Source of the DNA: Anisus vortex
Lineage: Eukaryota; Mollusca; Gastropoda; Planorbidae
Length of the DNA: 64,000 nt
Direction: 5' to 3'
NCBI GenBank assembly: GCA_949126835.1
Contig: OX421493.1
Location: forward strand, 60,063,898 to 60,127,897
Shown: piece by piece, positions 5,886-61,100 of the stretch
How positions within the stretch are numbered: the stretch's first letter is position 1
Layout: each line of letters starts with the position of its first letter
Notes under the pieces: generated by a model
Seen by the model: only the letters and a program-made list of their open reading frames with translations
Database searches by the model: none
What the model was told of the DNA's origin: nothing
Made by a program: the position numbers and the translations under genes

Positions 5886-6204
5886 CAAATATTATATGTA
5901 TGCCTCACTTAATTTAAATTAGAAATGTCCAGTGTCGCATAATAATTTAATTAAAAATTTTAATTCCATATATAAATATAACACAGTCCAGCTAATGTAT
6001 AACAAACTATATATATTTTATGTCAACACAGTTTAATTTGACATGGTCGTGACATAATCAGAAGTCTTGCACTCCAGGTTTCTAGCAGGAGAATCTAAAC
6101 GTTTAAAGTTCTGCAGATCTGGAGACATTTGAGGTCATCGACATGGCATGGGCATTGTCTCTTCTGTATAAGGAATAGCCCCTGGTAGTGACACCCTGGT
6201 GGGC

Positions 6205-6850
6205 AGTACATGTCGGAACAGCTGGAACAGTCAACCAGGAACAGGGCTGAAATAGTTTGTGTTATGTTAGAGGAAATTGCAATAATCCATCAAGCATTAA
6301 ACTCTAATTTAGAAATTGCAATAATACATCAAGCATTAAACTCTAATTTAGAAATTGCAATAATCCATCAAGCATTAAACTCTAATTTAGAAATTGCAAT
6401 AATCCATCAAGCATTAAACTCTAATTTAGAAATTGCAATAATCTATCAAGCATTAAACTCTAATTTAGAAATTGCAATAATCCATCAAGCATTAAACTCT
6501 AATTTAGAAATTGCAATAATCCATCAAGCATTAAACTCTAATTTAGAAATTGCAATAATCCATCAAGCATTAAACTCTAATTTAGAAATGCGACAGAAAA
6601 AGATTTTGTTACAAAGCTCAGATAAACATAAAGGCAAAGAAACATTCCTTATCCCTTATGCGAGAACAAATGCACATAAGTACTCATTCTTCTCGAGTGG
6701 CATTTGGGCATGGAGTAGGTTACCTGAGCAAACCACGAAAACCAGTAACTTAACATCATTTAAAACATTTGTAAAAATGCAAGAGTAGACTCGGACCACG
6801 GATGAGCAATAATCTTCTTTATAGAAGGAGCGTCTGAAGAAATGTATCTT
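6205..6850 (+). mobile_element. Jockey-like LINE 3' fragment with amplified coding segment
   Basis: The ORF at 6210-6788 ends in FLIPYARTNAHKYSFF, SGIWAWSRLPEQ and TSNLTSFKTFVKMQE. These match the C-terminus of the LINE at 11646-12552 (FLIPYARTNAYKYSFF, SGIQAWNGLPGQ). After the stop come the tail motifs TCGGACCACGGATGAGC and AGAAGGAGCGTCTG. Upstream, the short segment that reads VVIIHKALNSNLE in the other copy has been amplified eight times. The 5' end is not defined. Confidence 0.75.
6273..6584 (+). repeat. 39-bp coding minisatellite in LINE ORF, 8 copies
   Basis: Eight 39-bp units encode the 13-residue repeat EIAIIHQALNSNL in the frame of the LINE polymerase. The corresponding segment in the LINE at 12252-12290 occurs once. 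The unit length preserves the reading frame. Units differ by only one or two bases, so the expansion is recent. Confidence 0.93.
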
Positions 6851-11645: not shown

Positions 11646-12552
11646 ATGCATCAAATTGCATCAACACAGGAACAAATGTAAGATTATTTGCAGATGATTA
11701 CATAATTTATAGAATAATAAAGACAGGAAAAGATAGTGAACTTCTACAAAAAGACCTAGATGAACTATAAAAATGGGAATCAAACTAGAGTATGTCTTTT
11801 CACCCAGAAAAATGCCGACTAATAAGGGTATCAAAGAAAAAGAAACAAATAATAGCAAACTACTTCATTCATGGTAAAGAACTAACTCAAACTAACAATG
11901 CTAAGTATCTAGGAGTGATAATAAATGACAAGTTATCTTGGAACCCTCATATTGGTGAAGTAATAAAAAAAATCTAACAAAACATTAGGATTCATAAGAG
12001 GAACTTTTACAAATGTAATAAGAATATAAAACTAAAATGCTATCTCACATTAGTTAGACCTATACTAGAATATGCAGCACCTGTATGGGACCCATCAACT
12101 AAAGAAAAAATAAAAAAATTAGAACAAATCCAAAAAAAGAGCTGCAAGGTTTATAACTAGTGAATATTCCCAATTAACAAGAGTAACACCATTAGTCAAA
12201 TCACTAAACCTAGAAACACTAGAGGACAGAAGGGCAAAGAGTAAAGTAGTAATAATACATAAGGCATTAAACTCTAATTTAGAAAGACAACCCAATAACA
12301 ACCTGTTGCAAAGCTCAGGTAAACATAAAGACAAAAACACTTTTCTTATCCCCTATGCGAGAACAAATGCATATAAGTACTCTTTCTTCCCGAGTGGCAT
12401 TCAGGCATGGAATGGGTTGCCTGGACAAGCCAGGAAAACCAGTAACTTAACATCATTTAAAACATTAATAAAAATGCAAGACTAGACTTGGACCACGGAT
12501 GAGCGTAGGACGCAATAATCTTCTTTATAGAAGGAGCGTCTGTAATGTATAA
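11646..12552 (+). mobile_element. Jockey-like LINE fragment with RT catalytic box
   Basis: Broken frames on the + strand encode HINTGTNVRLFADDYIIYR (the FADD catalytic box), SFHPEKCRLIRVSKKKK, NAKYLGVIINDKLSWNPHI, LVRPILEYAAPVWDPST, then VVIIHKALNSNLE, FLIPYARTNAYKYSFF and the terminus TSNLTSFKTLIKMQD. This order is that of a Jockey-type reverse transcriptase. Stops and frameshifts (for example near 11769 and 11976) make it non-functional. The 3' tail with GCGTAGGACGCAATAATC and AGAAGGAGCGTCTG ends at about 12552. It is the reference copy for fragments at 1030, 6205, 11188, 27395, 37803 and 55495. Confidence 0.85.
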
Positions 12553-13854: not shown

Positions 13855-16595
13855 AATATGGAAAACATCAAGATTGTCAATAATAAGTTATTACATGAGA
13901 AAATAAGAGAAATATATGGGAAGAGAAAAAGTACACAATCAAGCTGCATTTAATCAAAAGAAGAAAATATTCTGTTAGACAAAGAAGACATACTATGCAG
14001 ATGGGCAGAATATATTGAGGAACTATTTGATGATGACATACTATGCAGATGGGCAGAATATATTGAGGAACTATTTGATGATGACATACTATGCAGATGG
14101 GCAGAATATATTGAGGAACTATTTGATGATAACATACTATGCAGATGGGCAGAATATATTGAGGAACTATTTGATGATGACATACTATGCAGATGGGCAG
14201 AATATATTGAGGAACTATTTGATGATGACATACTATGCAGATGGGCAGAATATATTGAGGAACTATTTGATGATAACATACTATGCAGATGGGCAGAATA
14301 TATTGAGGAACTATTTGATGATGACATACTATGCAGATGGGCAGAATATATTGAGGAACTATTTGATGATGACATACTATGCAGATGGGCAGAATATATT
14401 GAGGAACTATTTGATGATGACATACTATGCAGATGGGCAGAATATATTGAGGAACTATTTGATGATGACATACTATGCAGATGGGCAGAATATATTGAGG
14501 AACTATTTGATGATGACATACTATGCAGATGGGCAGAATATATTGATGAACTATTTGATGATAACATACTATGCAGATGGGCAGAATATATTGAGGAACT
14601 ATTTGATGATGTCATACTATGCAGATGGGCAGAATATATTGAGGAACTTTTTGATGATGACATACTATGCAGATGGGCAGAATATATTGAGGAACTATTT
14701 GATGATAACATACTATGCAGATGGGCAGAATATATTGAGGAACTATTTGATGATGACATACTATGCAGATGGGCAGAATATATTTAGGAACTATTTGATG
14801 ATGACATACTATGCAGATGGGCAGAATATATTGAGGAACTATTTGATGATGACATACTATGCAGATGGGCAGAATATATTGAGGAACTATTTGATGATGA
14901 CATACTATGCAGATGGGCAGAATATATTGAGGAACTATTTGATGATGACATACTATGCAGATGGGCAGAATATATTGAGGAACTATTTGATGATGACATA
15001 CTATGCAGATGGGCAGAATATATTGAGGAACTATTTGATGATGACAGGAAAGAAAAACCAAGCTTAACCAAAAATATTGAAGGCCCACCAATATTGAAAG
15101 ACGAGGTTGAAAATGCTATCAAGAAAATGAAACATGGTAGGGCCCCAGGGCCAGACAACATTCCAGTGGAAATATATGACGCATTGGGATAAATAGGCAT
15201 ACATGAAATAATTCAACTTGTTAACAAAATATATGATACTGGTAAGATCCCCTCAAGCTTAAGCAGATCAATTTTCATCAAAATACCCAAGGAACCTGGA
15301 GCAACAGATTGTGAATTACACAGAACAATTAGCTTAATGAATCATGTCACAAAAATACTCCTCAGAATAATCATGGAAAGAATAAGAAGTAAAATCCGTC
15401 CGGAAATTTCAGAAACCCAGTTTGGATTCGTTCCAGATAAAAGCACAAGAAATGCTATTTTCACCTTATCTATGTTAATTGAAAGATGTATCCAGATGCA
15501 AAAAGACCTGTATCTGTGCTTTATAGATTATTCTAAGGCATTTGACTAAGTCAAACATCAAGATCTATTTACTTTATTACAAGATCTGGATATAGATGAT
15601 AAAGACCTCAGAATAATAAGAAATCTATACTGGGAGCAAGAAGCTGCCATAAGATATGAAGGGGAGTTAAGTGCATTCAAACCAATAAAGAGAGGAGTAA
15701 GACAGGGATGTGTTTTATCACCAGACCTCTTCAACATATACAGTGAAATAATACTCCGGAATATCGAACACCTAGATGGCTGAGCTATGCAGACGACACA
15801 GTACTAATAGCAGAATCAGAAAGTGCCCTGCAAACTATTCTAAATAAAGTGGTAGAGAGGAGCCGACTTAAAGGATTAACACTCAATCTCAGTAAGACCG
15901 AAGTAATGGTAATCTCTAAGAAAACACAACCTCCAGAATGCTCCGTATACAGTGAAGGAAAAAATATCAAGCAAATCAGTTAGTTTCAGTATCTGGGCTA
16001 TACAATAACACAGGAAGGCAAATGCAACAAGGAAATAAAAAGAAGAATCGCAATATCTAAAAACAGCTTCATGAGCTTAAGCAGCAGGCTCTCATGAAAA
16101 ACAGGAATATCAGAATATGTACCAAAATGCGCATACTGAAGGGATATGTTTGGTCTGTTCTTTTATATGGGTGTGAATGTTGGACTATTGATAATGAAAA
16201 AAGGAAAAGTTTGGAGGCAGTAGAAATGTGGTTTCTAAGAAGGATGATGAGAATATCATGGACTGAAAAGAAATCTAATGCAGAAGTGTTGAAAACAGCA
16301 TATAACCTCAAGCTAACTCATTAACACCATTAGGAATAGACAGATGAAATTCCTAGGACACATCTATTGGAAAAATGGTATTGAAAGACTGGTTTTGTGT
16401 GGGAAAATATCTGGTAAGAGAGACAGAGGAAGGCAAAGGCTGACATATGTAGAAAGCCTGAACGAATAGACCACGAACTACAACATAAGCAATAATAACT
16501 TCCTCCAAATAGCTGACAACAGAAAAGAATGGAGCGTCATGACCGCCGATGTCTGTTCCAGACCTGGCACATAAAGAAGAAGAAGAAGAAACAAT
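13855..16595 (+). mobile_element. RTE-like LINE fragment with internal minisatellite
   Basis: Several frames give a non-LTR polymerase: IREIYGKRKS, ILLDKEDILCRWAEYIEEL (a segment before the RT domain), KMKHGRAPGPDNIPVEIY, FGFVPDKSTRNAIFTL, DLYLCFIDYSKAFD, RGVRQGCVLSPDLFNIY, a weak AMQTT/DD region near 15785, LLYGCECWTIDNEKRKSLEA and the terminus MTADVCSRPGT. It ends in a (GAA)n tail at about 16576-16592. Stops at about 15190, 15547 and 15782 kill the ORF. The conserved RW.EY segment is amplified 22-fold at 13987-15042. The endonuclease part is absent. Confidence 0.88.
13987..15042 (+). repeat. 48-bp coding minisatellite in LINE ORF, 22 copies
   Basis: Exactly 22 units of 48 bp. In the LINE frame each encodes the 16-residue repeat DILCRWAEYIEELFDD, continuous with ILLDKE upstream and DRKEKPSLTKNIEGPP downstream. 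One unit has acquired a stop (TAG at 14785-14787). The other two + frames and the - frames are also largely open, an accident of the unit. Only a handful of substitutions separate the copies. Confidence 0.96.
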
Positions 16596-32700: not shown

Positions 32701-35700
32701 ATTGAGAAAGATAGAAAGAGAGCGCAAATATAAAAGAAAAAGGAGAAATGATAGTTATATTTTTCATCTTCAGTCTATAGAGAGGGGTGAGCAAAGAATT
32801 GTTGTGTATATACAAGTAATACTTAAGCGAAAAGTTTGTTAAATAAATGGGAAAACAACAAAATATTATCTCTTTGAGTTTTTTAAATATTTTTTTAGTA
32901 TCGAATCAAAAAATGAATATAACACTCAAAGGAGAAGCAGGATACAGGAAAACATGCACTCTGGATGACCTCTCCTATCAAATCTATGAAGATGTGACCG
33001 ACATCCACTGTCCGAGCACCGAATTAATCTATCAGATTGACCTTGAGCTGGATATTCCGGACATAAGACTTTGTTCCGTTTACGTCAGCAAAGGTCAGGC
33101 TGACCCGTTGTTTTGTTCTTAAAGTGTGAAAAGTATCTTCTTATACAGTACTTTAGGTCATGTAAACTGGGAAGGTTTATGTCATGTAAACTGGGAGGGC
33201 TTATGTCATGTAAACTGGGAAGGTTTATGTCATGTAAACTGGGAAGGCTTATGTCATGTAAACTGGGAAGGTTTATGTCATGTAAACTGGGAAGGTTTAT
33301 GTCATGTAAACTGGGAAGGTTTATGTCATGTAAACTGGGAAGGTTTATGTCATGTAAACTGGGAAGGTTTATGTCATGTAAACTGGGAAGCCTTATGTCA
33401 TGTAAACTGGGAAGGTTTATGTCATGTAAACTGGGAAGGTTTATGTCATGTAAACTGGGAAGGTTTATGTCATGTAAACTGGGAAGGCTTATGTCATGTA
33501 AACTGGGAAGGCTTATGTCATGTAAACTGGGAAGGTTTATGTCATGTAAACTGGGAAGGTTTATGTCATGTAAACTGGGAAGGCTTATGTCGTGTAAACT
33601 GGGAAGGTTTATGTCATGTAAACTGGGAAGGTTTATGTCATGTAAACTGGGAAGGTTTATGTCATGTAAACTGGGAAGGTTTATGTCATGTATACTCAGA
33701 CGGTTTATGTCATGTAAACTGGAAAGGTTTATGTCATCTAAACTGGAAAGGTTTATGTCATGTAAACTGGGAAGGTTTATGTCATGTATACTCAGACGGT
33801 TTATGTCATGTAAACTGGGAAGGTTTATGTCATGTAAATTGGGAAGGTTTTTGTCATGTAAACTGGGAAAGTTTATGTCATGTAAACTGGGAAGGTTTAT
33901 GTCGTGTAAACTGGGAAGGTTTATGTCATGTAAACTGGAAAGGCCTATGTCATGTAAACTGGGAAGGTTTATGTCATGTAAACTGGGAAGGTTTATGTCA
34001 TGTAAACTGGGAAGGTTTATGTCATGTAAACTGGGAAGGCTTATGTCATGTAAACTGGGAAGGTTTAAGTCATGTAAACTGGGAAGGTTTATGTCATGTA
34101 AACTGGGAAGGTTTATGTCATGTAAACTGGGAAGGCTTATGTCATGTAAACTGGCAAGGTTTATGTCATGTAAACTGGGAAGGTTTATGTCATCTAAACT
34201 GGGAAGGTTTATGTCATTTAAACTGGGAAGGTTTATGTCATGTATACTCAGACGGTTTATGTCATGTAAACTGGAAAGGTTTATGTCATGTACACTGGAA
34301 AGGTTTATGTCATGTAAACTGGGAAGGTTTATGTCATGTATACTCAGACGGTTTATGTCATGTAAACTGGGAAGGTTTATGTCATGTAAATTGGGAAGGT
34401 TTTTGTCATGTAAACTGGGAAGGTTTATGTCATGTAAACTGGGAAGGTTTATGTCATGTAAACTGGGAAGGTTTATGTCATGTAAACTGGGAAGGTTTAT
34501 GTCATGTAAACTGGGAAGGTTTATGTCATGTAAACTGGGAAGGTTTATGTCATGTAAACTGGGAAGGTTTATGTCATGTAAACTGGGAAGGTTTATGTCA
34601 TGTAAACTGGGAAGGCTTATGTCATGTAAACTGGGAAGGCTTATGTCATGTAAACTGGGAAGGTTTATGTCATGTAAACTGGGAAGGCTTATGTCATGTA
34701 AACTGGGAAGGTTTATGTCATGTAAACTGGGAAGGTTTATGTCATGTATACTCAGACGGTTTATGTCATGTAAACTGGAAAGGTTTATGTCATGTAAACT
34801 GGAAAGGTTTATGTCATGTAAACTGGGAAGGTTTATGTCATGTATACTCAGACGGTTTATGTCATGTAAACTGGGAAGGTTTATGTCATGTAAACTGGGA
34901 AGGTTTATGTCATGTAAACTGGGAAGGTTTATGTCATGTAAACTGTGAAGGTTTATGTCATGTAAACTGGGAAGGTTTTTGTCATGTAAACTGGGAAGGT
35001 TTATGTCATGTAAACTGGGAAGGCTTATGTAATGTAAACTGGGAAGGTTTATGGTCTTTTACAATGTTTCATATTTCCATAGGTCGCAATTTGGCCTATG
35101 GTCAAACAGTCTCTGTATCAAGTGTTGAACGGGATGGTCTTGCCCAGCTTGCTATCGATGGTAATACCGCTTACCAAAATGGCTGCACTCAAACGGCTCC
35201 AAACGATGCGGCACCACATTTCAACTTAACCTTTGCCGTCCCGGTAACTTTGAATGAAATCAAAATATACAACGGAGGTAAGAGATTTTGGTGACATCAA
35301 CATTCAAAAAAGGAATGTCAAATGTTTTTACTAATATGTTGATGAAATTATACACGCATTGTGTGCTGAATAAACTGACGCGATCAATAATAATATAATA
35401 ATCTCTATAATAAAAGCCCAAATATATCTGTCAGTCAGTGTATCGGAACACTTAGAAACTTGGTTTTGAGTGTATAGACTGAGTGACTAGACGGGTATCA
35501 AACCATGACTTAGACCTAGATTACTTCCGGCTTCTGTTTCCCTACTTTTGAAAAAACATGCCATAAGCCTATACTAAATCGGCCTACAATGCTAAAACTT
35601 AATAATAACTTATTAAACAAAACTCTTTATCCCCTCGGTTTCCCACGGGCTAGTTCTAGTACAGCAATAGTTGTCTGATACAGTAATTATTGTTTTGTTT

Positions 35701-38700
35701 TTAGAAATACCATATGTATTGTCTAATACAGTAATTATTATTTGGTTTTTAGAAAATACCATATGCATTGATGATACAGTAGTTATTGTTTTGTTTTTAG
35801 AAATACCATATGCATGGTCTGATACAGTAATTATTGTTTTGTTTTTAGAAAATACCATATGCATTGATGATACAGTAATTATTTTTTTGTTTTTAGAAAT
35901 ACCATATGCATTGTCTAATACAGTAATTATTGTTTTGTTTTTAGAAAAACCATATGCATTGTCTGATACAGTAATTATTGTTGTTTTTTTAGCAAAATCA
36001 TTTGCAATGTCTCTGAATAAGTTTATCCTGAAACTTTACGATCCAGCGGGTGAAGAAATAGTACAAGTCCAAGATACCTCTGAAGGGGAGAAACTGGTTT
36101 ACACAGTTATCTTGAAGAGAAGGAAGAATGTGAAACGTATGACCATTTGGACTAGAACTTTGAATAATAAAGGCGCGGTGCTAAGTATCTGTGAAGTTGA
36201 GCTGTTCGGAGGTAACGTTTGTATCACCTAGTGTTATTGTGTTTGCATTAAGAAATGGACATCTAATAGACTAATACGAGTTGCATTCAGGACCGGTTCT
36301 AGGGTTTTTGACGCCCTAGGCGAAAACAAATTTTGCACTCTCATTAAATTGCTTTCTGTGGGGAGACACTGAGTAGTGTTGAAGCATACTTTCCTAATTT
36401 CTAAGACAACTTAAAAAAAATACCCTTCACGTTTCATTGTGTAGTAATTCGTCTACCTATGCTAGTAAGTAGCACGCATAAGTTAAACTTTACTAAACTT
36501 TAATTTACTTTATATTTTTAAATCCCCAAATTAAAAAACAATTATGCGCCTTCAAAAAAAGTTCCGTTCTACGCGGCCTCCTATAGGTTGCCTATATGGA
36601 CGAGCCGGCCCTGGTTGCATTGTATAATATGTTAAGTATTTGTTGTGTGTTGGGGACACGAGCGAAGTGGCGGGGGGTGGAATTAATATGCAGCAAGGGG
36701 TGTCTAAGAGATTATTCCCGGGGGTCGCTGTGTAATTCTTGAAGTATGATGCAATGTTTTTTTTAGAGTGAATTCAGAATATTTATATTTTGTTCTTTGA
36801 CAAATCTGGCGTGGCTGGCACAGATTTGTTGATATGATTTGATATAGTAATATCTCAACGTGAACGATCAGATTACAAAATTCAAAATGAATAAATCTAC
36901 TTCGTGGATGAATTTGAAATCTAACTGTTAGTTTGGTGCCTCGATAAGTCTTCTAAACAGTGTGTTGGGGGGGGGGATAAGTAGTCTAATCGTCTGCGTT
37001 CATCATTATTGCGAGTGGGGAGTGGTGAGGGGGGAGGGCTACGTTAATATGGCTCATAGTAGACAGTAAATACGTCAGTACAGATAGAAGAAAATAAATG
37101 TGGACATGTAAATATATCAACCATGAAAAATATGGACATGTAAATATATCAACCATGAAAAATATGGACATGTAAATATATCAACCATGAAAAATATGGA
37201 CATGTAAATATATCAACCATGAAAAATATGGACATGTAAATATATCAACCATGAAAAATATGGACATGTAAATATATCAACCATGAAAAATATGGACATG
37301 TAAATATATCAACCATGAAAAATATGGACATGTAAATATATCAACCATGAAAAATATGGACATGTAAATATATCAACCATGAAAAATATGGACATGTAAA
37401 TATATCAACCATGAAAAATGTGAAGATTTAGATACAGATATTAATTATGGAAGAATGTACATACATAAATCTAAATTAAATTGCAATCGTACAGATTCAT
37501 TCTGGTCAGCACCACTCAAGCTAGAATCCATGTGTAATTTTTAACAAGGTGAAGTTATTTTGAGTTCCTATGCCATTGCGCTAGGCTGAGAAGTTTGGCG
37601 CCTTCCCTAACCTATCACACTATTAGTGTTTTCAAACATTTCACACTGGAAGATTCCATTGTGCGTTAAAATTCTTTTAGACTGTATGGAGAATTTCTGG
37701 GGGTACAACTGCAAAAATGCTTGTCCAAAGACCTGTTATAAAGGTTGCACCATTGACGGTCAATGCCATTATATTACGTATCCCAAGACTGAAGGTAAGG
37801 AGCATTTTTATCTTATCTTATATATTACAAACACTCCTTCTCTAAAGAAGATTATTGCGTCCTATGCTCATCCGTGGTCCTAGTCTAGTCTTGCATTTTG
37901 ATTAATGTTTTAAATGATGTTAAGTTACTTGTTTTCCTGGTTTGTTCAGGAAACCCATTTCATGCCCGAATGCCTCTCGGGAAGAAATAATGCATTTGTT
38001 CTTGCATAAGGGATAAGAAAGTGTTTTTGTCTTTATGTTTATCTGAGCTTTGCAACAGGTTGTTATTAGGTTGTATTTCTAAATTAGAGTTGCCTTGAGT
38101 ATTAATAACATTATTACTCTTTTACACTTAATTACAATTTGTTTAATAGTGATATCGTTTTATTTTTTGTATATAAACAATTAAAAAAAACATAACGTTT
38201 TATCAGAGAAACAATATTAGTAGGAACGCTATAGTGTTTCCCAACCTTCTAAATGCCGCGACCCTAACCCTAACCCTAACCCTAACCCTTAATAAAGCTT
38301 TTCACGTTGTGGCGACCCCCAACCAGAAATATTGTTTGTCGCTATCTTATAACTGTAATTTGCTACAGTTGTAATTTGTAAATGAACACAACTTCTGATG
38401 TTTTTAATTACTTCTTATAACTCTTGTGACAGATTCCTCGATGCTAATATTTGTGGAGGAATCATACAGTGAGTTCCGATTACTTTTGGTAACTCATTCA
38501 GTACCGAACGTGAAATCCAGACCAAACATTATCTACACTAAGCTCCAATATATTCATGAATTGTTTTACAGCCAATACTGCTGCTTTCATCACAGTTGCT
38601 GCTTGTAACTCATCAATTCACTATTCATGTGTGACCTGTTGGCATACGTACACTATGGAGCCAACTTTGTCACACATACCTGTTTTTGTATGGGGTTTAT

Positions 38701-44700: not shown

Positions 44701-47700
44701 AAAGTAATTTAAAATAAATATTTTTTTTAATCGGGTAAAAAACAGATTTTATTTAACAGAAATATAAATTGCTCGGTCTTGCTGGTAGATTTACAATCTT
44801 TTATTTTTGAAAGCACCGGGGTATATTATAAGTAGCGGGTTATATTGTAAGTAGCGGGTTATATTGTAAGTAGGAGGTTATATTGTAAGTAGCGGGTTAT
44901 ATTGTAAGTAGCGGGTTATATTGTAAGTAGCGGGTTATATTGTAAGTAGCGGGTTATATTGTAAGTAGCGGGTTATATTGTAAGTAGCAGGTTATATTGT
45001 AAGTAGCGGGTTATATTGTAAGTAGCGGGTTATATTGTAAGTAGCGGGTTATATTGTAAGTAGCGGGTTATATTGTAAGTACCAAGTTATATTGTAAGTA
45101 GCGGGTTATATTGTAAGTAGCGGATTATATTGTAAGTAGCGGGTTATATTGTAAGTAGCGGGTTATATTGTAAGTAGCGGGTTATATTGTAAGTAGCGGG
45201 TTATATTGTAAGTAGCGGGTTATATTGTAAGTAGCGGGTTATATTGTAAGTAGCGGGTTATATTGTAAGTAGCGGGTTATATTGTAAGTACCGGGTTATA
45301 TTGTAAGCACCGGGTTATATTGTAAGTAGCGGGTTATATTGTAAGTAGCGGGTTATATTGTAAGTAGCGGGTTATATTGTAAGTAGCGGGTTATATTGTA
45401 AGTACCGGGTTATATTGTAAGTACCGGGTTATATTGTAAGTACCGGGTTATATTGTAAGTAGCGGGTTATATTGTAAGTAGCGGGTTATATTGTAAGTAG
45501 CGGGTTATATTGTAAGTAGCGAGTTATATTGTAAGTACCGGGTTATATTGTAAGCACCGGGTTATATTGTAAGTAGCGGGTTATATTGTAAGTAGCGGAT
45601 TATATTGTAAGCACCGGGTTATATTGTAAGTAGCGGGTTATATTGTAAGTACCGGGTTATATTGTAAGCACCGGGTTATATTGTAAGTAGCGGGTTATAT
45701 TGTAAGTAGCGGATTATATTGTAAGTAGCGGGTTATATTGTAAGTAGCGGGTTATATTGTAAGTAGCGGGTTATATTGTAAGTAGCGGGTTATATTGTAA
45801 GTAGCGGGTTATATTGTAAGTAGCGGGTTATATTGTAAGTAGCGGGTTATATTGTAAGTACCGGGTTATATTGTAAGTAGCGGGTTATATTGTAAGTAGC
45901 GGGTTATATTGTAAGTAGCGGGTTATATTGTAAGTAGCGGGTTATATTGTAAGTAGCGGGTTATATTGTAAGTTGCGGGTTATATTAATTTTAAAAAATG
46001 TTAATGTGTGGAAAAAAAGGTAAAGACTAACTGGAGAATTGAACCCTGATCACCCGCATGAGAGTTCGATACGTTATCCACTTAGCTAGTCCGAAGTGAA
46101 ATCGCAAAAGTATAATTTGAGACAATAAGGTCCCGTGTCTTTAAATTAACTAATATAATTGGTAGAATACAAACAGTCTACACTATATAAATATATTCTT
46201 CTGTACAAATGTCTGACTGGGTTTGTCTGTTCTCACAGCTAGGTACTTGAATGTCTCTGTGGAATTAATCGATTCCAATGGAAACAGCATCGAGTGTGGC
46301 AACAACAACAAGGCGTTTGTTACCGGTTTCACTATCCTGGAAGTTTACTGTGATGTCAACGTGACATTGACGTCAATCTACATTTATGTGGACATCAATA
46401 ACTCTGTTTGTTCAATATACTTAAGTGGAGGTAAGCAGTTACTTGATTTTTTTTTTTACATTACATAAGTTCTTTACTTAACAAGTTAGTTTTTTACTTA
46501 ACAATTTTACTTAACAAGTTAGTTATTTTCTTAACAAGTAATTTCTTTACTTAACAAGCTAGTTCTTTACTTAACAAGTTGTTTTTTTACTTAAAAAGTT
46601 AGTTCTTAGTTCCTTACTCTACAAGTTAGTTCTTTACTATACAAGTTAGTTCTTTACTTAACAAATTAGTTCTTTACTTGACTCGTTAGTTCATTATTCT
46701 ACAAGTTAGTACTTTACGTTTGAATTCTGAAAACTTCGTGGAAAATCCATTCTAGTATTTTCTTCATCGAAACTTCTAGAAGTTTTACAGTCCAGTCTTT
46801 TGGATCTTGTGTGTTTCCATAAAGAATTTTTTTTGTTGTTTTTGACCAATGAAATTAAATGTTATTATTACACATAAGATCAAGCATTAAATTCTTCTTT
46901 AAACATTCATCGAGTGTCTTGAGTTTATTATTTGTATGGAACCAGATTCTAGACTAACGACAGAAGACTTATAAAACAATTTGGATGACATAGATTTAGA
47001 AGTGCGTTCCTCAGCAAGAGACTCGCACAATTTATTATCAATGTGCGCCAGAAACACGTCTTTTTTGCAAACGTCTTTAGATCGCAGGCAAGGGCGGCCT
47101 CTTTATCTTGTTCCAACTGCCAGTTCTCCATAGAGCTGGGCTCGTGGGATACGGTCCCTAACCCATTCTGTCGACTAAACCTATCTACCACAGGCGCCTC
47201 TCACTTAGGATTGAGTTGATACTCAACATAGGGCTTCTCCTGAGCACCTCCACATTTGTGACTCTATCCTGCCGTTTGATGTGGAGGATCCTGCGCAAGC
47301 GTCGCAGATGAAAGCTATTGAGCGGTTTTATTTGCTTAGCGTATGTAGCCCAGGTCTCGCTTCCATAGAGAAGTGTGCAGAGAACGCAGGCCTGGTAGAC
47401 AAAGATTTTTTACCTTTCAGTGAGTTGGGCATTGTCCCACACTCTTTGGTTGAGCCTTGCCATTAAGGATACTTCCTTAACATTTCTAGTTTGTATTTCT
47501 TTTTCCAGGGACAGTTAGCTTGACCTGTTACTTCCGAGTTAGTTTTCCAGGGACAGTTAGCTTGACCTGTTACTTCCGAGTTAGTTTTCCAGGGACAGTT
47601 AGCTTGACCTATTACTTCCGAGTTAGTTTTCCAGGGACAGTTAGCTTGACCTGTTACTTCCGAGTTAGTTTTCCAGGGACAGTTAGCTTGACCTGTTACT

Positions 47701-49054
47701 TCCGAGTTAGTTTTCCAGGGACAGTTAGCTTGACCTGTTACTTCCGAGTTAGTTTTCCAGGGACTGTTAACTTGACCTGTTACTTCCGAGTTAGTTTTTC
47801 AGGGACAGTTAGCTTGACCTGTTACTTCCGAGTTAGTTTTCCAGGGACAGTTAGCTTGACCTGTTACTTCCGAGTTAGTTTTCCAGGGACAGTTAGCTTG
47901 ACCTGTTACTTCCGAGTTAGTTTTCCAGGGACAGTTAGCTTGACCTGTTACTTCCGAGTTAGTTTTCCAGGGACAGTTAGCTTGACCTGTTACTTCCGAG
48001 TTAGTTTTCCAGGGACAGTTAGCTTGACCTGTTACTTCCGAGTTAGTTTTCCAGGGACTGTTAACTTGACCTGTTACTTCCGAGTTAGTTTTTCAGGGAC
48101 AGTTAGCTTGACCTGTTACTTCCGAGTTAGTTTTCCAGGGACAGTTAGCTTGACCTGTTACTTCCGAGTTAGTTTTCCAGGGACAGTTAGCTTGACCTGT
48201 TACTTCCGAGTTAGTTTTCCAGGGACAGTTAGCTTGACCTGTCACTTCCGAGTTAGGTGTAATCCTCGCAGACATTCAAGGTGTTTTCTTCAGTGGAGAT
48301 TGCTGGAAGGCAGTCTGTACCTTGCCTCATAATATTGTTATGTTTGAAAATTATTGTTAATATGAATTCCTTACATGCCTCTCAGAATTTACTGACCAGT
48401 TGTTGGAGCCCATCCTCTATAAGAGAAGTTAGAGCTGCATTATCAGCAAAGATGTGCATAGGCACATACATTGTACATGAATTATACATATATAAATATA
48501 TATATATACAAGCTAAAGTGCCCGGCTTTGCCCGGAGAAAAATTAAAAGGGCCGGTATAAAATACTATGAAAAAAAAAATTTTGGCCAGAAGTAATAATT
48601 TTAATAATAAAATTATTAGATTTTATTTACTGAAAACCTTTTAGGAAAGTTTTAAGTCCTAAAATCCTTACACTCTTTAAGAAAAAGTAAGATGAATGAA
48701 AATTTTTTTTAAAGAAAAAAAAAGAAATCTGTCAGTGGGGAATCGACCTCAGATCGCTCGCTTGGCAGTTAACACGTCAGTTTTGTGTCACTGGTCTATC
48801 TAGGCATATATAGTGTCTAATAATATTCCTGAATAATATTCGTCAATAATATCGGGCAATAAATTAATATTGTTTTTTAAATTTCTTTTTAATAACTTTG
48901 TAAATAAATTCATTCAATTCAGTTTGGCTTGATTTACTTTTATCTGGCAAGCCATTAATTAAATCATGCCAATTTGGACATCTCTTTCCGTTACTATAAC
49001 CTTTGACGTGTTTTCAAATTAACCAATGGGGATCGGATTACAGACAAACACTGA

Positions 49055-49149
<95 letters not shown>

Positions 49150-52100
49150 ATTTGCTAGATAGATAGAGAGATAAAAGAAAGAGAAATCTTTACTTCCATT
49201 ATGTAACAGGAAGAAATATGGCCCACGGCCAGGCAGTGCAACTGTCCAGTATTTGGTCTAAAAACTTGACCACAGCGACTGCACAGCGAGCCATTGATGG
49301 TTTCAGGGGTCAACAGGCCAGTGCACGTGGATGCAGTCGGTCAGACGAATCGGACACTAACCCACATTTTAATATCACGTTTGACGCCCCAAGATTTATA
49401 AGGAGAATCATTATACACAATACAGGTAAAATAGAGATGGTCAACGCCGAGCTATTTTACGTACAAATCGATTACCTTTTAACCATTAAGTTAAAGGATT
49501 GAAACCGCTATCATCTATGCCTAATTATAAATACTTTAAATGTATATGACAAAAGTTCATTTCTATTCTATGCACACAATTGTTCTTGTTTTCTTTTTTA
49601 AAAAGAATGTCTAAAAACAAAACATATTTACTGAAACAAATTAACAATTGTTTAACCAATAAAGAAAATGATTTCAAATGTTTACCTAGCAGAATGGCAA
49701 CTGTTTCAGATGTAAAATATAAGCTTACTATGTCTTTTAAATGAAGAAAACAGGAAAATAGACATTGAAATGATAAAAAAAATCATTTTATATTTATAAA
49801 TATAATATATTTACATAGACTTATCATTCATTAAAACATAATATCTTTACATTGACTTATCATTCATTAAAACATAATATCTTTACATTGACTTATCATT
49901 CATTTAAACATAATATATTTATATTGACTTATCTTTCATTAAAACATAATATATTTATATTGACTTATCATTCATTAAAACACAATATCTTTACAGTGAC
50001 TTATCATTCATTAAAACATAATATCTTTACATTGACTTATCATTCATTAAAACCTAATATCTCTACATTGACTTATCATTCATTAAAACATAATGTCTTT
50101 ATATTGACTTATCATTCATTAAAACACAATATCTTTACAGTGACTTATCATTCATTAAAACATAATATCTTTACATTGACTTATCATTCATTTAAACATA
50201 ATATATTTATATTGACTTATCATTCATTAAAACATAATATATTTATATTGACTTATCATTCATTAAAACACAATATCTTTACAGTGACTTATCATTCATT
50301 AAAACATAATATCTTTACATTGACTTATCATTCATTAAAACCTAATATCTCTACATTGACTTATCATTCATTAAAACATAATGTCTTTATATTGACTTAT
50401 CATTCATTAAAACATAATATATTTATATTGACTTATCATTCATTAAAACCTAATATCTTTACATTGACTTATCATTCATTAAAACATAATACCTTTACAG
50501 TGACTTATCATTCATTAAAACATAATATCTTTACATTGACTTATCATTCATTTAAACATAATATATTTATATTGACTTATCATTCATTAAAACATAATAT
50601 ATTTATATTGACTTATCATTCATTAAAACACAATATCTTTACAGTGACTTATCATTCATTAAAACATAATATCTTTACATTGACTTATCATTCATTAAAA
50701 CCTAATATCTCTACATTGACTTATCATTCATTAAAACATAATGTCTTTATATTGACTTATCATTCATTAAAACATAATATATTTATATTGACTTATCATT
50801 CATTAAAACCTAATATCTTTACATTGACTTATCATTCATTAAAACATAATACCTTTACAGTGACTTATCATTCATTAAAACCTAATATCTCTACATTGAC
50901 TTATCATTCATTAAAACATAATGTCTTTACATTGACTTATCATTCATTATAACTTATATTTACATAGACTTATCATTCATTATAACATAATATATTTACA
51001 TAGACTTATCATTCATTAAAACATAATATATTTACATAGACTTATCATTCATTAAAACATAATATATTTACATAGACTTATCATTCATTAAAACATAATA
51101 TATTTACATAGACTTATCATTCATTAAAACATAATATATTTACATAGACTTATCATTCATTAAAACATAATATCTTTACATTGACTTATCATTCATTAAA
51201 ACCTAATATCTCTACATTGACTTATCATTCATTAAAACATAATGTCTTTATATTGACTTAACATTCATTAAAACATAATATATTTATATTGACTTATCAT
51301 TCATTAAAACCTAATATCTTTACATTGACTTATCATTCATTAAAACATAATACCTTTACAGTGACTTATCATTCATTAAAACATAATATCTTTACATTGA
51401 CTTATCATTCATTTAAACATAATATATTTATATTGACTTATCATTCATTAAAACATAATATATTTATATTGACTTATCATTCATTAAAACACAATATCTT
51501 TACAGTGACTTATCATTCATTAAAACATAATAACTTTACATTGACTTATCATTCATTAAAACCTAATATCTCTACATTGACTTATCATTCATTAAAACAT
51601 AATGTCTTTATATTGACTTATCATTCATTAAAACATAATATATTTATATTGACTTATCATTCATTAAAACCTAATATCTTTACATTGACTTATCATTCAT
51701 TAAAACATAATACCTTTACAGTGACTTATCATTCATTAAAACCTAATATCTCTACATTGACTTATCATTCATTAAAACATAATGTCTTTACATTGACTTA
51801 TCATTCATTATAACTTATATTTACATAGACTTATCATTCATTAAAACATAATATATTTACATAGACTTATCATTCATTAAAACATAATATATTTACATAG
51901 ACTTATCATTCATTAAAACATAATATATTTACATAGACTTATCATTCATTAAAACATAATATATTTACATAGACTTATCATTCATTAAAACATAATATAT
52001 TTACATAGACTTATCATTCATTAAAACATAATATATTTACATAGACTTATCATTCATTAAAACATAATATATTTACAGAATTACAGCAATCTAGGCTTAT

Positions 52101-55100
52101 GGACAAATTCGTTCTAAGGTTATTTAACTCAAAAGATGACCTCATACTAGAACACAAAGACAATTCAGAACGCGGGGCACAATACGAATTCACAGTTTTG
52201 TTGCCAACTGTGAAAGTGCCAGTTCGGAGGATAACGTTAGCAGCCACGGCGAAAGTTTCACCAAACACAGGATCGATTCTACATATCTGTGAAATAGAGA
52301 CGTTTGGAGGTGAGATTCAAACATTAAATAAAAGTTTTGTGTGTTTGAAGCATTATTTCGCACATTATTATTTCGTTTAGAATATAAAGCAGTGAAGAAT
52401 ATAAAGCTATTAAGAATGTAAAGCAGTGAAGAATAAAAAGCAGTAAAGAATATAAAGCAGTGAAGAATATAAAGCTTGAAGAATATAAAGCTGTGAAGAA
52501 TATAAAGCAGTGAAGAATATAAAGCAGTGAAGAATATAAAGCAGTGAAGAATATAAAGCAGTGAAGAATATAAAGCAGTGAAGAATATAAAGCAGTGAAG
52601 AATATAAAGCAGTGAAGAATATAAAGCAGTGAAGAATATAAAGCAGTGAAGAATATAAAGCAGTGAATAATAAAGATTCTACTCATGTCACTTAGATATC
52701 TTGCAACTTTCACTTCTAGACAGTCTTGGGCATGCTGTAGTGTTGATAGTATTGATAGATGACCTATAGAAGTGACGATCACTGCCATCATCACTTTACT
52801 CGAATATATTATATAGAATAATCCCTAGAATATACCATAACAATAATTCCTAGCATATACCAAATATAGAACAGTCCCTAGAATATACCATATAAATAAT
52901 CCCTAGCATATACCATATAAATAATCCCTGGCATACACTATATAAAACAATCCCTTGATCATAGTGATTCCCAGACACCCCCCCCCCCTCTCCGCCAACC
53001 CGTCACATTTTTGGAAGTAATAGATCTATACACATGCAAATTAGCTGTATTCAAATTTAGTTTAAAACAATTTTACGGGCTCGTTTTGAATTTATTAGTT
53101 AAAATCAGTTGTGTTTGGCTATTGGTATAACTATAACTGTTATGCCATTGCCGCTACACATTAATACGTTGAAAGAATTGTGCTAAGCCCATACTCTTTC
53201 CCAGACTGCCCACATGGAACCTGGGGTTTTGAGTGTAATAAAACATGTCCTGAACATTGTGAAGGTCGTTGCAATGCCCTTGATGGATCATGTATGGCTG
53301 TTTGTATGTTCAACACCATTCTGCCTAACTGCCATCAGAGTAAGAAAATTTCCTTCATTCATTAAATAATTGATTACTTGAACGATTACTTGATAGATCG
53401 ATTACCTGATTGGTTACTTGATTGATTATTTGATTTATTACTTTATTGATTAATTGATTACTTGATTAATTATTGGATTGGCTAATTTGATTTACAAATG
53501 AAATATAAACTTTCACTGTTTATTTCTGCTATTATTTTAAAAATTTCATTCCAAGTCCTAACCAAATGACTGTTAGATTTCCTGTCAACTGTGATGTATA
53601 CCATGCATTAATTAATTTAGTATTCACATCATTAGCGTAGAAAGAAAATGTCAAGATTTCTGAATAATCCTTTAATCAAAAACTAAATTCCGAATTTCAA
53701 ATCTGCACACAAACTTTAAAATAATAAAGCAAATGCATCTGAAGAAATTACAATATGAGATTATATAGGTGTTTCTTATAGCAAACAAAATAGATTTATG
53801 CTTCTTTCACATTTAAAAATGTAGTTTAACGCTACCATATACATAATTAGTAATTTTATGTGCAAAAATAAACTCAGATGTATGTCTATGTAGTTTTTCA
53901 TCTCACCATTACGCCATTTCATCACCCTTTCATCACCCTGTTGATTTGATTAAAACTAGGAATGTTAATGTAGGATTTTTTTTTAAAAACCCATTTTCGG
54001 TTCTACAATAATGATTTAAAACCTATTTAGGTTCGTCAATCTCTCCCCCTCCCCCACCCCCTCATGTCCATTGTGTGTTTCTGTTTGTTATTATGTATGT
54101 ATAGGTGTGATGATAAAGCTATTGTTTTTAGCCAAGTTTGTCTGTTATGTATGTATAGGTGTGATGATAAAGCAATTGTGTGTTTCTGTTTGTTATTATG
54201 TATGTATAGGTGTGATGATAAAGCTATTGTTTTTAGCCAAGTTTGTCTGTTATGTATGTATAGGTGTGATGATAAAGCAATTGTTTTTAGCCAAGTTTGT
54301 CTGTTATGTATGTATAGGTGTGATGATAAAGCAATTGTGTGTTTCTGTTTGTTATTATGTATGTATAGGTGTGATGATAAAGCAATTGTTTTTAGCCAAG
54401 TTTGTCTGTTATGTATGTATAGGTGTGATGATAAAGCAATTGTTTTTAGCCAAGTTTGTCTGTTATGTATGTATAGGTGTGATGATAAAGCAATTGTTTT
54501 TAGCCAAGTTTGTCTGTTATGTATGTATAGGTGTGATGATAAAGCAATTGTTTTTAGCCAAGTTTGTCTGTTATGTATGTATAGGTGTGATGATAAAGCA
54601 ATTGTTTTTAGCCAAGTTTGTCTGTTATGTATGTATAGGTGTGATGATAAAGCAATTGTTTTTAGCCAAGTTTGTCTGTTATGTATGTATAGGTGTGATG
54701 ATAAAGCAATTGTTTTTAGCCAAGTTTGTCTGTTATGTATGTATAGGTGTGATGATAAAGCAATTGTTTTTAGCCAAGTTTGTCTGTTATGTATGTATAG
54801 GTGTGATGATAAAGCAATTGTTTTTAGCCAAGTTTGTCTGTTATGTTTGTTCCTCGTCCGCGTGGAAATCCCAGTTTTTGCTTCTTAACTACGTAGATGA
54901 AAAGGATGTGCCGCAGACTCGCGTTAATGGTAACTTAACATTTGCGTTTCTTGTAATCTTTGTATAGCAAGCAGTATTTGGGATTAGAAATTAAAAAAAC
55001 AAAAAAAAGTCCTATTAGTCGACTATGGCTTGTCTAATTAATGTTTGCAAGGCATTTAATGTTAAAACGTTAAGAAATTGTTTAGTGCGAATCAAACATG

Positions 55101-58100
55101 GTTTTAAAATATTTATTTGAGAACAAAACAGAACAAGTCGTGGGAACCATAATTCATTAAATTTTCTCCCTAGTTTCCAACAAAATAAAAAATCGGGTTT
55201 AAGTTTGAAAACTGATTTGTCTTTTTTTTTACCATCCTAAAATCCAAACCCTAACCCTAACCCTATTTTATCTGCCAGATTGTCGCGCTGGTACTTATGG
55301 CAACAAATGTGAGTTGAGCTGTACCGTTGGCTGCTACAAGAACACCTGTCACTACATGACAGGAGAATGTCTAGCGGGCTGTAATGGACACAGCGACCCA
55401 CCGCATTGTAAAAAAAGTGAGTACGAATAACACACTATGAGCAGGTTTCATACTGATACCTTATATAGGGTAGCAGATACGATAAGATACGTTGTATGTT
55501 TCCTTATCTCTTATACGAGAACAAATGCATATAAGTACTTAAGTACTCATTCTTCCCGAGTGACATTCGGGCATGGAATGGGTTGCCTGAACAAATCAGG
55601 AAAACCAGTAACTTAACATCATTTAAAACATTAATAAAGATTCAAGCCTAGACTCGAACCACGAATGAGCGTAGGACGCATTAATTGCAAAAAAAGTTCA
55701 TTTTTGTTTTTTTCTTCCTTCTAGAGTGTACTGGCGGGAAATATGGCTACAATTGTTTACTGAATTGTCATCATAGCTGCAAGAATTTATGTGACCATAT
55801 CACGGGTGAATGTTCTCAAGTGTGTACCGGATTTTCTAATCCACCTGTTTGTAATCAAGGTAAATCTACTAGTCAATGTTTTATTTTCTTTAAACATGAG
55901 TAACAAATCTTTAAATTTGATTCAATAAAACAATGCTTTGTTTTAGTGTAAAGAATAATAATTGGAATAATTAAATAGTTTATAGTCATTATTAGCACTC
56001 AGTTTCATGTCTCCTAAACTAAAGTCATATTTATTAAAAATGGGGGAATTATTTGAGAGGGCCAAATAACTTATAGCGTATACTAATTAAGCTCGGGCGA
56101 AATTAGTTTATTGGGTACACGGTGGCCGTGAGGCAGCGCGTTCGGCTGGATTACCGAAGTCCTGGGTTCGAATCCTGGTGCAGGCTAGGATTTCTTTCCC
56201 GGGTCTGGCGGTTGCCCTTGAGACTACTCAGCTCTGATGGGTACACAACCTTAAAATAAAGGCGGCTGTGCATAGTGTTGGCCACACAATCACCTAGAAT
56301 GCCGTGGACACAGAAACTGGTGAATGCTGTTTCATCGGCCCTATGGATCAATTTGGTCCGACGGGATACTTAAAAAAAAATTAGTTTATCACTTAATGAC
56401 AAGAGTGGCCTGATTTGTTTTAACTATGATCGTCTTTCTGTGTCCAGACTTAGCATTTCAATATTACATCGTCGTTTCTTCTATTTCAGTGTGTGATAAA
56501 GGGTTTTATGGCAAGAACTGTGAAATGAAATGTTCACATTGTTCCAACCACTCCTGCCATCACGAGAATGGGAATTGTACGTCTGGCTGTGCAGGATTTA
56601 CAGACTTTCCCTTTTGTAAAAAAAGTATTTGGAGATTAGCATTATTATACTATTCAAACACTGTATTATACTATTCAAACACTGTATTATACTATTCAAA
56701 CACTGTATTATACTATTCAAACACTGTATTACACTATTCAAACACTGTATTATACTATTCAAACACTGTATTATACTATTCAAACACTGTATTATACTAT
56801 TCAAACACTGTATTACACTATTCAAACACTATATTATACTATTCAAACACTGTATTATACTATTCAAACACTGTATTATACTATTCAAACACTGTATTAT
56901 ACTATTCAAACACTGTATTACACTATTCAAACACTGTATTATACTATTCAAACACTGTATTACACTATTCAAACACTATATTATACTATTCAAACACTGT
57001 ATTATACTATTCAAACACTGTATTATACTATTCAAACACTGTATTATACTATTCAAACACTGTATTACACTATTCAAACACTATATTATACTATTCAAAC
57101 ACTGTATTATACTATTCAAACACTGTATTACACTATTCAAACACTGTATTATACTATTCAAACACTGTATTATACTATTCAAACACTGTATTATACTATT
57201 CAAACACTGTATTATACTATTCAAACACTGTATTACACTATTCAAACACTATATTATACTATTCAAACACTGTATTATACTATTCAAACACTGTATTACA
57301 CTATTCAAACACTGTATTATACTATTCAAACACTGTATTATACTATTCAAACACTGTATTATACTATTCAAACACTGTATTATACTATTCAAACACTGTA
57401 TTATACTATTCAAACACTGTATTATACTATTCAAACACTGTATACATTTGTTTAGTTAAGGCAAAGGAATGAAAGCGACTGTCTTCTATGTAGACAGAGA
57501 CTTGTAAGTCGGTCTTTATAACTCAGTCTTGTTCTTTCTACTTCTAGTATTTAAAAACAAAACTGGCATACCGAAGTTTCTGGGTTCGAATCCTGGTGAA
57601 GGCTAGGATTTTGTTCCCAAAACTAGAGCATGTCCCTCATTCTAGCCAGCTGTGATGGGTACCTGACTTTAGTTTATTGAAAGTAAACGCGGCTGGGTGT
57701 TGTGCTGGCCACACAGTACTCTAGTACGCCTTGGCCAGAAATATTGCTGACAGCTGCTTCACCGGCCCTATGATCAATCTGGTCCCACGGGTACTTTACT
57801 TACATCATCTGTACTATTTCTACTATTTCTATTATACACAAACATATAATGGATGCCCATTGTAAATCAGTATATCTATGAATTATTTCAGCAAAGCAAA
57901 GGTCTTTGATTTAAACAAATATTTACTCTTGTAAACATAAAGGTGACAATTATGTGATTTTATTGGAAAGTTTTAGAAGGATTCCATTTTGCAGACAAAT
58001 ACGGATTAAAATTTCAACCATTATATTATGAGATCCATTGTTTACAATTTCGAAACATTGACAGAAATACGACCAATAAAATCACATAATTTGTATCACT

Positions 58101-61100
58101 TAAAAAATAGTTGTACAATGAAATATTGCAATGTCCTTAAAATGTTAAAATTGTTGTACAATGAAATATTGCAATGTCCATTAAAATTGTTAATTGTTGT
58201 ACCATGAAATATTGCAATGTCCATTAAAAATTTTAATTGTTGTACCATGAAATATTGCACTGTCCATTAAAATTTTTAAACCCTCAATTGTAGTTTTTTC
58301 TTCCACTTGATGTTTGTCTTGAACTCAGAATGTCCTACAAATACATATGGAGACAAATGTAACAAGCGTTGTCCGGCAGTATGTTACTTGAGGCTGTGTC
58401 ACCATCTTACTGGAGAGTGTGATTCTGGCTGCAACAACTTCGAAGATCCACCACTCTGTAAAACACGTAAATTACATTCATAACTTTTTGTTGTTGTTTA
58501 TTTTGGTTTTATTATGTCGTAGGTTGATCCAAATATATTTGACTATGTCCTGCTCTACCAAATGTCATCAGAGGTCATCAGCTCAAACTGCGTGTTCCAC
58601 ACGCACGTACCGACGTCTACAACTATTTTTTCCCGTCAGCCATTAGACTGTGGAACTCACTGTACCGAATCTCCATCGCTGGCCCTTCTGTAACAGCTTT
58701 CAAATCTTCAATGAAGGGTTGGACTAAATACCTCAAATGAAACTCCGTCGTCTGTTTATAACTCGTGTTTGTATATTATACAATATTATAAGTAGTTAAT
58801 GCATACTTTTGAGCCTATTGCTTTCACAATCAAATCACCCTTAAATTGTGGACTTTTTCCTCGGGTTTAATGGGGTCTCCACAATACAATGAAGAAGAAT
58901 AAGAAGAGGCATAACAGAATTTCTATAGGTAGAAAAAAGGAGACTTGTGAAACATATCCCTTAATGCAAGACTTTCTGAATGCAAGACTTTCTGAATGCA
59001 AGACTTTGTGAATGCAAGACTTTCTAAATGCAAGACTTTCTGTATGCAAGACTTTTCTGAATGCAAGACTTTCTGAATACAAGACTTTCTGAATGCAAGA
59101 CTTTTCTGAATGCAAGACTTTCTGAATGCAAGACTTTCTGATATGCAATACTTTCTGAATGCAAGACTCTCTGAATGCAAGACTTTCTGAATGCAAAACA
59201 TTCTTAACGTTAACCCAATGGATGTGAGGCTGAAATTTCTGATAATTTTTCTGGTCGATTTTTAGGATAAATATTTTTGCCTGTACGACTGGTAACGGAT
59301 TGAATTATCTTTGTTTCCAGCATGTACAACTGGTAACGGGTTGAATTATCTTTGTTTCCAGCCTGTACAACTGGTAACGGGTTGAATTATCTTTGTTTCC
59401 AGCCTGTACAACTGGTAACGGATTAAATTATCTTAGTTTCCGGCCTTTACAACTGGTAACGGATTGAATTATCTTTGTTTCCAGCCTGTACAACTGGTAA
59501 CGGGTTGAATTATCTTTGCTTCCGGCCTGTACAACTTGTAACGGATTGAATTATCTTTGTTTCCAGCCTGTACAACTGGTAACGGGTTGAATTATCTTTG
59601 TTTCCAACCTGTACAACTGGTAACGGATTGAATTCTCTTTGTTTCCAGCCTGTACAACTGGCAACGGATTGAATTATCTTTGTTTCCAGCCTGTACAACT
59701 AGTAACGGGTTGAATTATTATTGTTTCCAGCCTGTACAACTAGTACCGGATTGAACTATCTTAGTTTCCAGCCTGTACAACTGGTAACGGGTTGAACTAT
59801 TTTTGTTTCCAGCCTGTACAACTGGTAACGGGTTGAATTGTTCATGTCATGACTACTGTAAGCGATGTGAAATTTTTAGTACTGCATGCGCCGAGTGTAA
59901 GCCTGGATTTAAATTTCAAAATGTGACCAGACTTTGCAGCACAAGTAAATGTCTCAATCGTTTAATTTTTTATTTCATCTTTCGAAGTTTTATAATTGTT
60001 GATCTATAGGATACGAAAAATTTATTTGTAAACAATTTATTTATTATTGTTATATATTTGAAAACCTATTGTTATATTATTGTTAAATAATTGTTATATT
60101 ATTTTTAAATTATTGTTATAACCTTGTTAAATTATTGTTACATTATTGAAACATTATTGTTATATTTTTGTTATATTATTGTTATAATATAATATTTGGA
60201 TAATATAGCAATTGCAACAGGCGTAACTTAGGTTTATTGGTTGACGTAATTATGTAAAAAGCGGCCATGATGATGGTAATGATGAATAGCATTGTTCGTT
60301 ACCATGTGTATTTTAAACCCAAAATATACGAATTTGGTTTGCATAAATTTTGATATTTAACTGTAATACTACTCCTTAGTAGTCCGTCCACGAATTGAAC
60401 AAGATTTGAGGCTTTTATAATTATTCAATAGATCTTGTGAAACATTGCAGAGCATGCCTTATGCTTTACATCTAAACTGGATAGTACGTTAAGGCTAACT
60501 TTCGACAATCAATTAAATATTCTGCACTTACGGAACCTTTTCCATTGATTATTATTTGTTGAAATTTTAGCTTAAAATGTTAATTTTCATCGCATGACAG
60601 TGTTTTATATATTTTTACATTGTTGAAATTATGAAAATTAAAAATAAAACCTTCTTAAGCCTATAGCTGACATCGTTCACCACTAGACTAAGTAAACAAA
60701 CATCACGTGATTTTTGTCACGTGATTGCAAATGCTCTATACCCAGATTCAACAAATAGTATATCCGAATACTCGAATTTACTACTCAGTATTTTAGTTGC
60801 GTTGAGAAATTAATGACCATCAATGTCTTTTTCTTTTTTTTTTGTATCTGCTTTTTCTAGGTCCGTTCCTATGGAAAATGTCAGAGGCCAATTTAAGTGA
60901 AACTGAGTCAAGTGTGTTGGTTTATATTCCAGTCATTATTTTCTTTCTGGGTCTTTTCGTGGCCGGTCTTGCAGTGGTCATATTCCTTGGGCTACAAAGA
61001 GCTAAACGATGTGAGTTCTTACACATTCAATAGATTGTATACATTCAAGCAAAGATGTTTTAGCTTAAGGCTCTTATGCATTCTATAGTCTTTGGGTTGT

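Follow-up and report, generated by a model that had tools for sequence, protein, structure and literature searches.

The intron-exon junction in front of the second half of an F-type-like domain is covered by a minisatellite with a 48-bp unit, most probably a 'mirage', i.e. a minisatellite that duplicates an intron-exon boundary; the spliceosome would mainly use the last of seven acceptors, 35993, and the copies would be intron. Positions are those of the window, the whole stretch of 64,000 nucleotides that was analysed. The anatomy and the phase of the array could be followed throughout, a second array was found across another junction of the same gene model, and no amino-acid conservation was seen among the units.

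Gene model and F-type-like domains

An 18-exon model (22378-61010) was built from splice signals and reading frames, in which each exon is a multiple of three (18/18) and the joined exons give 983 codons without a stop. The model, which may represent one gene or two successive ones, contains two F-type-like domains that are both interrupted by an intron at the corresponding position, together with cysteine-rich exons, EGF when judged by eye, and a hydrophobic segment in 60861-61010 that by eye is transmembrane-like. Two of the cysteine-rich pieces were compared with Pfam and neither matched an EGF family; exon 59813-59944 matched no family at E up to 1.

Similarity to the F-type / F5-8 jelly roll was found for the first F-type-like domain, both in an alignment with the fucolectin-related 2j22 (E 9.3e-5, residues 2-136) and in Pfam scores of 23.3 bits for PF22633 and 18.4 bits for PF00754, both below the gathering scores. 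The lectin domain proposed in an initial annotation of this DNA can be kept as F-type-like by sequence, without the published fucose motif: HX24RXDX4(R/K), as given in the accessible part of PMC5712786, is found in neither of the window's two F-type-like domains. When searching one protein database for homologues of the two-exon domain, seven word-sharing candidates appeared, none of them with E up to 10, and the searches for Rfam families and tRNA gave 0 matches each.

Table 1. Features of the two junction arrays and of the exons and introns around them.
Feature	Position	Strand	Description
Upstream exon (exon 5)	35083..35277	+	195 nt, phase 1 at both ends; acceptor CCATAG/GTCGC, donor GGAG/GTAAGA; first half of the F-type-like domain, 2j22 homology spanning both halves
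Intron removed with the last acceptor	35278..35992	+	715 nt
First module	35657..35704	+	CTGAT resembling a branch point 27 nt upstream of the AG, followed by a T-rich tract and the AG; exon from 35705 would be 507 nt
48-bp minisatellite, 7.1 copies	35671..36012	+	spans the intron-exon junction, 20 nt into the exon; from Tandem Repeats Finder, unit alignment and exon-start similarity
Six 48-bp units	35705..35992	+	every unit starts like the exon and has a yUnAy motif (27-30 nt upstream of the AG), a T-rich tract and the AG
Alternative exon starts from the six units	35705, 35753, 35801, 35849, 35897, 35945	+	
Exon 6 from the last acceptor	35993..36211	+	219 nt, second half of the F-type-like domain; judged the authentic junction from alignments with 2j22 (no gap there) and 4gwi (one gap residue) and from Pfam scores of forms with or lacking an insert
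Second F-type-like domain	49210-49425 / 52079-52309	+	
36-bp array, 63.5 copies	49798..52077	+	stops 1 nt short of acceptor 52079; lies in the intron that splits the second F-type-like domain at the corresponding position
Second junction array	59279..59839	+	41-bp unit, 13.7 copies, TTATCTTTGTTTCCAG/CCTGTACAACTGGTAACGGATTGAA; copies the acceptor and the first 27 nt of exon 59813-59944
Exon with its junction copied in the 41-bp array	59813..59944	+	132 nt, cysteine-rich

Anatomy and phase of the 48-bp array

Tandem Repeats Finder gave the array a period of 48 and 88% matches (Table 1). Its seven TTTTTAG sites are spaced by exactly 48 bp and open exons at the six starts listed in Table 1 and at 35993; 7/7 acceptor choices match the phase of the upstream donor (after 35277, phase 1) and are free of stops to 36211, the open reading frame running from stop to stop over 35671-36231. 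The initial annotation was therefore right to the base in placing seven acceptors from 35705 to 35993, exactly 48 bp apart and all in the donor phase, and its frame open from 35671 through exon 6 was found again. It had also described a good tract and TTTTTAG or similar at all sites, and all seven copies do keep the AG and the T-rich tract as well as a yUnAy motif at 27-30 nt.

When comparing units 1 to 6 with the start of exon 6 over 21 nt from the acceptor G, 15, 9, 15, 9, 16 and 17 matches were found, and no position on the + strand of the window outside the array matches unit 6 at 17/21 or better. Four units clearly resemble the exon, whereas the resemblance has disappeared from the two with a +1/-1 change, so the earlier proposal that each unit repeats the start of exon 6 applies, over about the first 20 nt, to four of them. 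In the unit alignment the +1 and -1 changes of these two units (2/6) cancel, keeping both the 48 bp and the frame, and the units fall into two types, EIPYALSD-like and ENTICIDD-like, for which reason the 16-residue pattern quoted previously fits one type and not the other.

The resemblance of the units to the exon start, together with a repeat reaching 20 nt into the exon, strongly indicates that the junction itself was duplicated. A BLAST comparison of the 48-bp unit with the exons gave no match at E 0.05, since the exon part of the unit has diverged; with this result, and with even the nearest unit matching exon 6 at only 17/21, the duplication should be old or the units have drifted.

A second junction array

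The array at 59279-59839 is longer than the 48-bp array and belongs to the same gene model, and its period of 41 bp is not a multiple of three. The 12 upstream copies that were scored agree with the real junction in 23-27 of the 27 nt compared; nine of them keep the AG and score 9.5-11.4 bits, where the real site has 11.9, and three have lost it. Reading from the upstream starts met stops in 11/11 cases tested (2 to 15 stops each, the in-phase ones included), the 11 being the 12 copies minus the one at 59526, which the pattern used had missed. According to the predicted frames only the last acceptor here leaves the gene readable, and the strong-looking 41-bp copies must therefore be passed over. 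With one array out of phase it also follows that junction arrays form here regardless of phase and need splicing past.

Both arrays thus consist of tandem units lying across an intron-exon boundary (35671-36012 spans acceptor 35993, and 59279-59839 likewise spans its own) and keep splice signals in their copies, the AG being present in 7/7 copies of the 48-bp array and in 9/12 upstream copies of the 41-bp array. As judged from its sequence, the 48-bp array conforms to the anatomical definition of a mirage.

Selection on the open frame

An open read-through frame of at least 7 codons upstream was found for 17/18 acceptors of the gene model, which makes the open frame at the 48-bp array unremarkable, and random substitutions in the observed numbers leave the frame of the array open with a probability of 0.59. 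The open frame was consequently rejected as a sign of selection. The common phase of the seven acceptors follows from a period of 3 x 16 and from phase-1 introns in which AG/N read-through rarely meets a stop, and a period divisible by three is in itself a one-in-three event.

Amino-acid constraint on the alternative segment, which would be expected of regulated tandem 3' splice sites and had been proposed as a check on the units, was not seen: all variable codon columns of the array are nonsynonymous (10/10 among six units, a small sample), and 8/8 nonsynonymous changes are expected under no constraint with P 0.12. There is accordingly no sign of purifying selection on the 48-bp units, codon data of this kind not proving that selection is absent.

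Choice of acceptor

Scored with a small matrix made from 16 other acceptors of the gene model, which themselves range from -4.6 to 10.2 bits when left out one at a time, all seven acceptors of the 48-bp array fall at 4.5-7.6 bits with the last one at 5.4, and matrix scores cannot single out one of the seven. A branch-point criterion was tried as well and dropped; yUnAy at 27-30 nt is present in 7/7 modules of the 48-bp array, and it does not discriminate because the real acceptor 59813 has no such motif in the scanned range.

Other evidence points to 35993. An exon starting there is 219 nt, compared with 267-507 nt from the six other acceptors and 114-231 nt for the other 17 exons of the model, and alignments to solved relatives pass the junction without a gap (2j22) or with a gap of one residue (4gwi). 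A single insert lowers the score of PF00754 (F5/8) from 18.4 to 13.6 bits and PF22633 is lost. With the ordinary exon size, the near-gapless alignments and the poorer Pfam fit of an insert, 35993 is probably the authentic splice site.

Explanations for the array

The array would have arisen by tandem duplication of a 48-bp stretch consisting of the intron end (branch-point-like motif, T-rich tract and AG) together with some 20 nt from the beginning of the exon, an origin suggested by the repeat itself, in introns full of unrelated minisatellites of which two may have happened to start across an acceptor. The spliceosome would mainly choose the last acceptor, 35993, and the copies would stay intronic since this site lies directly in front of genuine exon sequence and yields a normally sized exon; splicing to 35945 or another copy at a low level would probably be tolerated as the frame is kept. 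Against this reading stand the AG, T-rich tract and yUnAy motif at 27-30 nt that are kept in 7/7 copies here, the AG having been lost in 3/12 upstream copies of the 41-bp array, as well as the cancelling indels and the limited resemblance of the units to exon 6 (17/21 for the nearest unit, no exon match by BLAST). Where modules are equal, an early branch point could also direct splicing to the first AG that follows it.

An isoform ladder, in which several of the seven acceptors are used in phase and between zero and six segments of 16 residues are added at the edge of the F-type-like binding-loop region, has in its favour that every one of the seven sites fits the phase and reads open, that their matrix scores are equal, that each has a branch-point-like motif, and that the two units with cancelling +1/-1 changes stay in frame. 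This is considered unlikely, as the variable codons are all nonsynonymous, the array at 59279 is unable to work in such a way because of its stops, the Pfam fit suffers from one insert and the strongly hydrophobic unit (GRAVY 1.2-1.7, the TVII..FL half 2.8-3.4) would fall in a loop of the beta-sandwich. The proposal in the initial annotation that acceptor choice adding 0-6 segments serves the lectin is left without positive support by the out-of-phase second array, the nonsynonymous codons and the fold fit with zero inserts. Slightly less likely still is an in-phase mirage acting as a protein-length dial, in which each of the seven acceptor modules would be used at some rate, one allele would yield a ladder of surface-receptor isoforms carrying from none to six hydrophobic inserts of 16 residues next to the binding loops, and a repeat number that differs from one individual to another would alter this ladder.

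An error of assembly or sequencing, giving a wrong copy number or a false array, has to be kept in mind as such arrays are hard to assemble, and according to the accessible part of PMC3902484 the PGBD5 arrays of lancelets differ between two assemblies (7 vs 2 and 6 vs 3 copies); with distinct substitutions in the units, a consistent order and similar arrays in 15/17 introns of the model, it is very improbable here. Least credible of all is a constitutively coding array with the exon starting at 35705 and six units in the protein, for which the open frame 35671-36231 and the complete first module speak, since its exon would far exceed the other 17 in length (507 nt) and nothing equivalent to the 96-residue insert is seen in the aligned solved relatives or in the window's other F-type-like domain.

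Minisatellites in the introns

Arrays occupy 16.0 of the 35.7 kb of intron and are present in 15 of the 17 introns of the model, while only 47 exon bases lie in arrays compared with 1164 expected under random placement. Two arrays, the 48-bp and the 41-bp one, span an acceptor, and among 21 array units examined these two alone contain an acceptor-like motif by the rule of the script used; the 36-bp unit at 49798-52077 has none by the same rule. With placement within introns (28 arrays, hand-picked from the Tandem Repeats Finder rows), six arrays end at most 60 nt from, or lie over, an acceptor compared with 2.4 expected (P 0.015), and the same count at donors is four compared with 2.4 (P 0.18). 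When 29 arrays picked in the same manner were dealt over the whole span including exons, 7 were observed near acceptors and 7.1 expected. A general seeding of arrays at acceptors was not established, the difference between acceptors and donors not being significant (P 0.22).

Several other repeats of the window were recorded. A 48-bp array of 22.1 copies (13987-15046, 98% matches) is open in several frames and runs in frame into an ORF that by eye resembles a reverse transcriptase (DILCRWAEYIEELFDDD repeats, 13954-15192), and a 39-bp array of 8.1 copies (6273-6589) has an open frame inside ORF 6192-6788, which by eye resembles the transposon-like ORF 12123-12485. At 47501-48256 a 42-bp array of 18 copies, with TTTTCCAG/GGACAG in each unit, lies in an open 280-codon ORF (47490-48332); no exon was recognised in it and it fails the acceptor-motif rule. 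A 54-bp array of 14.4 copies (54083-54850), intronic in the model, contains TTTTTAG and TATAG/GTGTG motifs and long open frames on both strands. Short CCCTAA-type (telomere-like) repeats are found at 38261-38289 and about 55243-55265, the second just upstream of acceptor 55279.

Comparison with known systems

Tandem acceptors of the NAGNAG type are 3 nt apart and share a branch point; as in the 48-bp array they are neighbouring acceptors of one exon and keep the frame, but here the spacing is 48 bp and each copy is a complete module. For human genes, Zhuo in 2007 reportedly described introns that formed out of tandem arrays. The human arrays resemble the present ones in having minisatellite-type repeats at intron-exon edges, possible alternative splice sites and a frame that is often kept. 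As far as the accessible part of the report on internal tandem repeats in human segmental duplications extends (PMC2812944), they differ in being recent and supported by transcripts, and no new intron is seen here.

The initial annotation expected a seven-fold in-phase junction array of this size to be unusual; it has a precedent in the mirages of lancelets, which are the same kind of structure. In the accessible parts of the two reports (PMC3087553, PMC3902484), their tandem units likewise combine the end of an intron, its AG and the beginning of the following exon, splice signals are kept in many of the copies though not in all, and the copy at the exon edge differs from the inner ones; RT-PCR of globins and data on Adh3 suggest that regular splicing is undisturbed, and the copy number varies between haplotypes. 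The present array departs from them in keeping AG and phase in 7/7 copies and in its unit of 48 bp, compared with 150-160 bp in BflGb6, 157 bp in BflGb9 and 10-72 bp in Adh3, and it is known from one DNA sequence whereas length polymorphism and transcripts were seen in lancelets. No report of mirages in molluscs or bivalves was found in the limited literature covered.

The sperm bindin of oysters, in the accessible part of PMC5712786, has an F-type lectin domain with a variable mid-domain intron tied to diversity, and alternative splicing of the number of domains. Its F-type domain is, as here, split mid-way by an intron, but its diversity stems from intron recombination and splicing of whole domains and not from repeated acceptors, and the present model differs in having cysteine-rich exons, a hydrophobic segment and no fucose motif.

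Junction minisatellites are natural tests of how the spliceosome chooses among near-identical acceptors, and the gene model pairs an in-phase with an out-of-phase array, the latter serving as a built-in control for the former. If the host is not a lancelet, mirages would extend beyond the cephalochordates.
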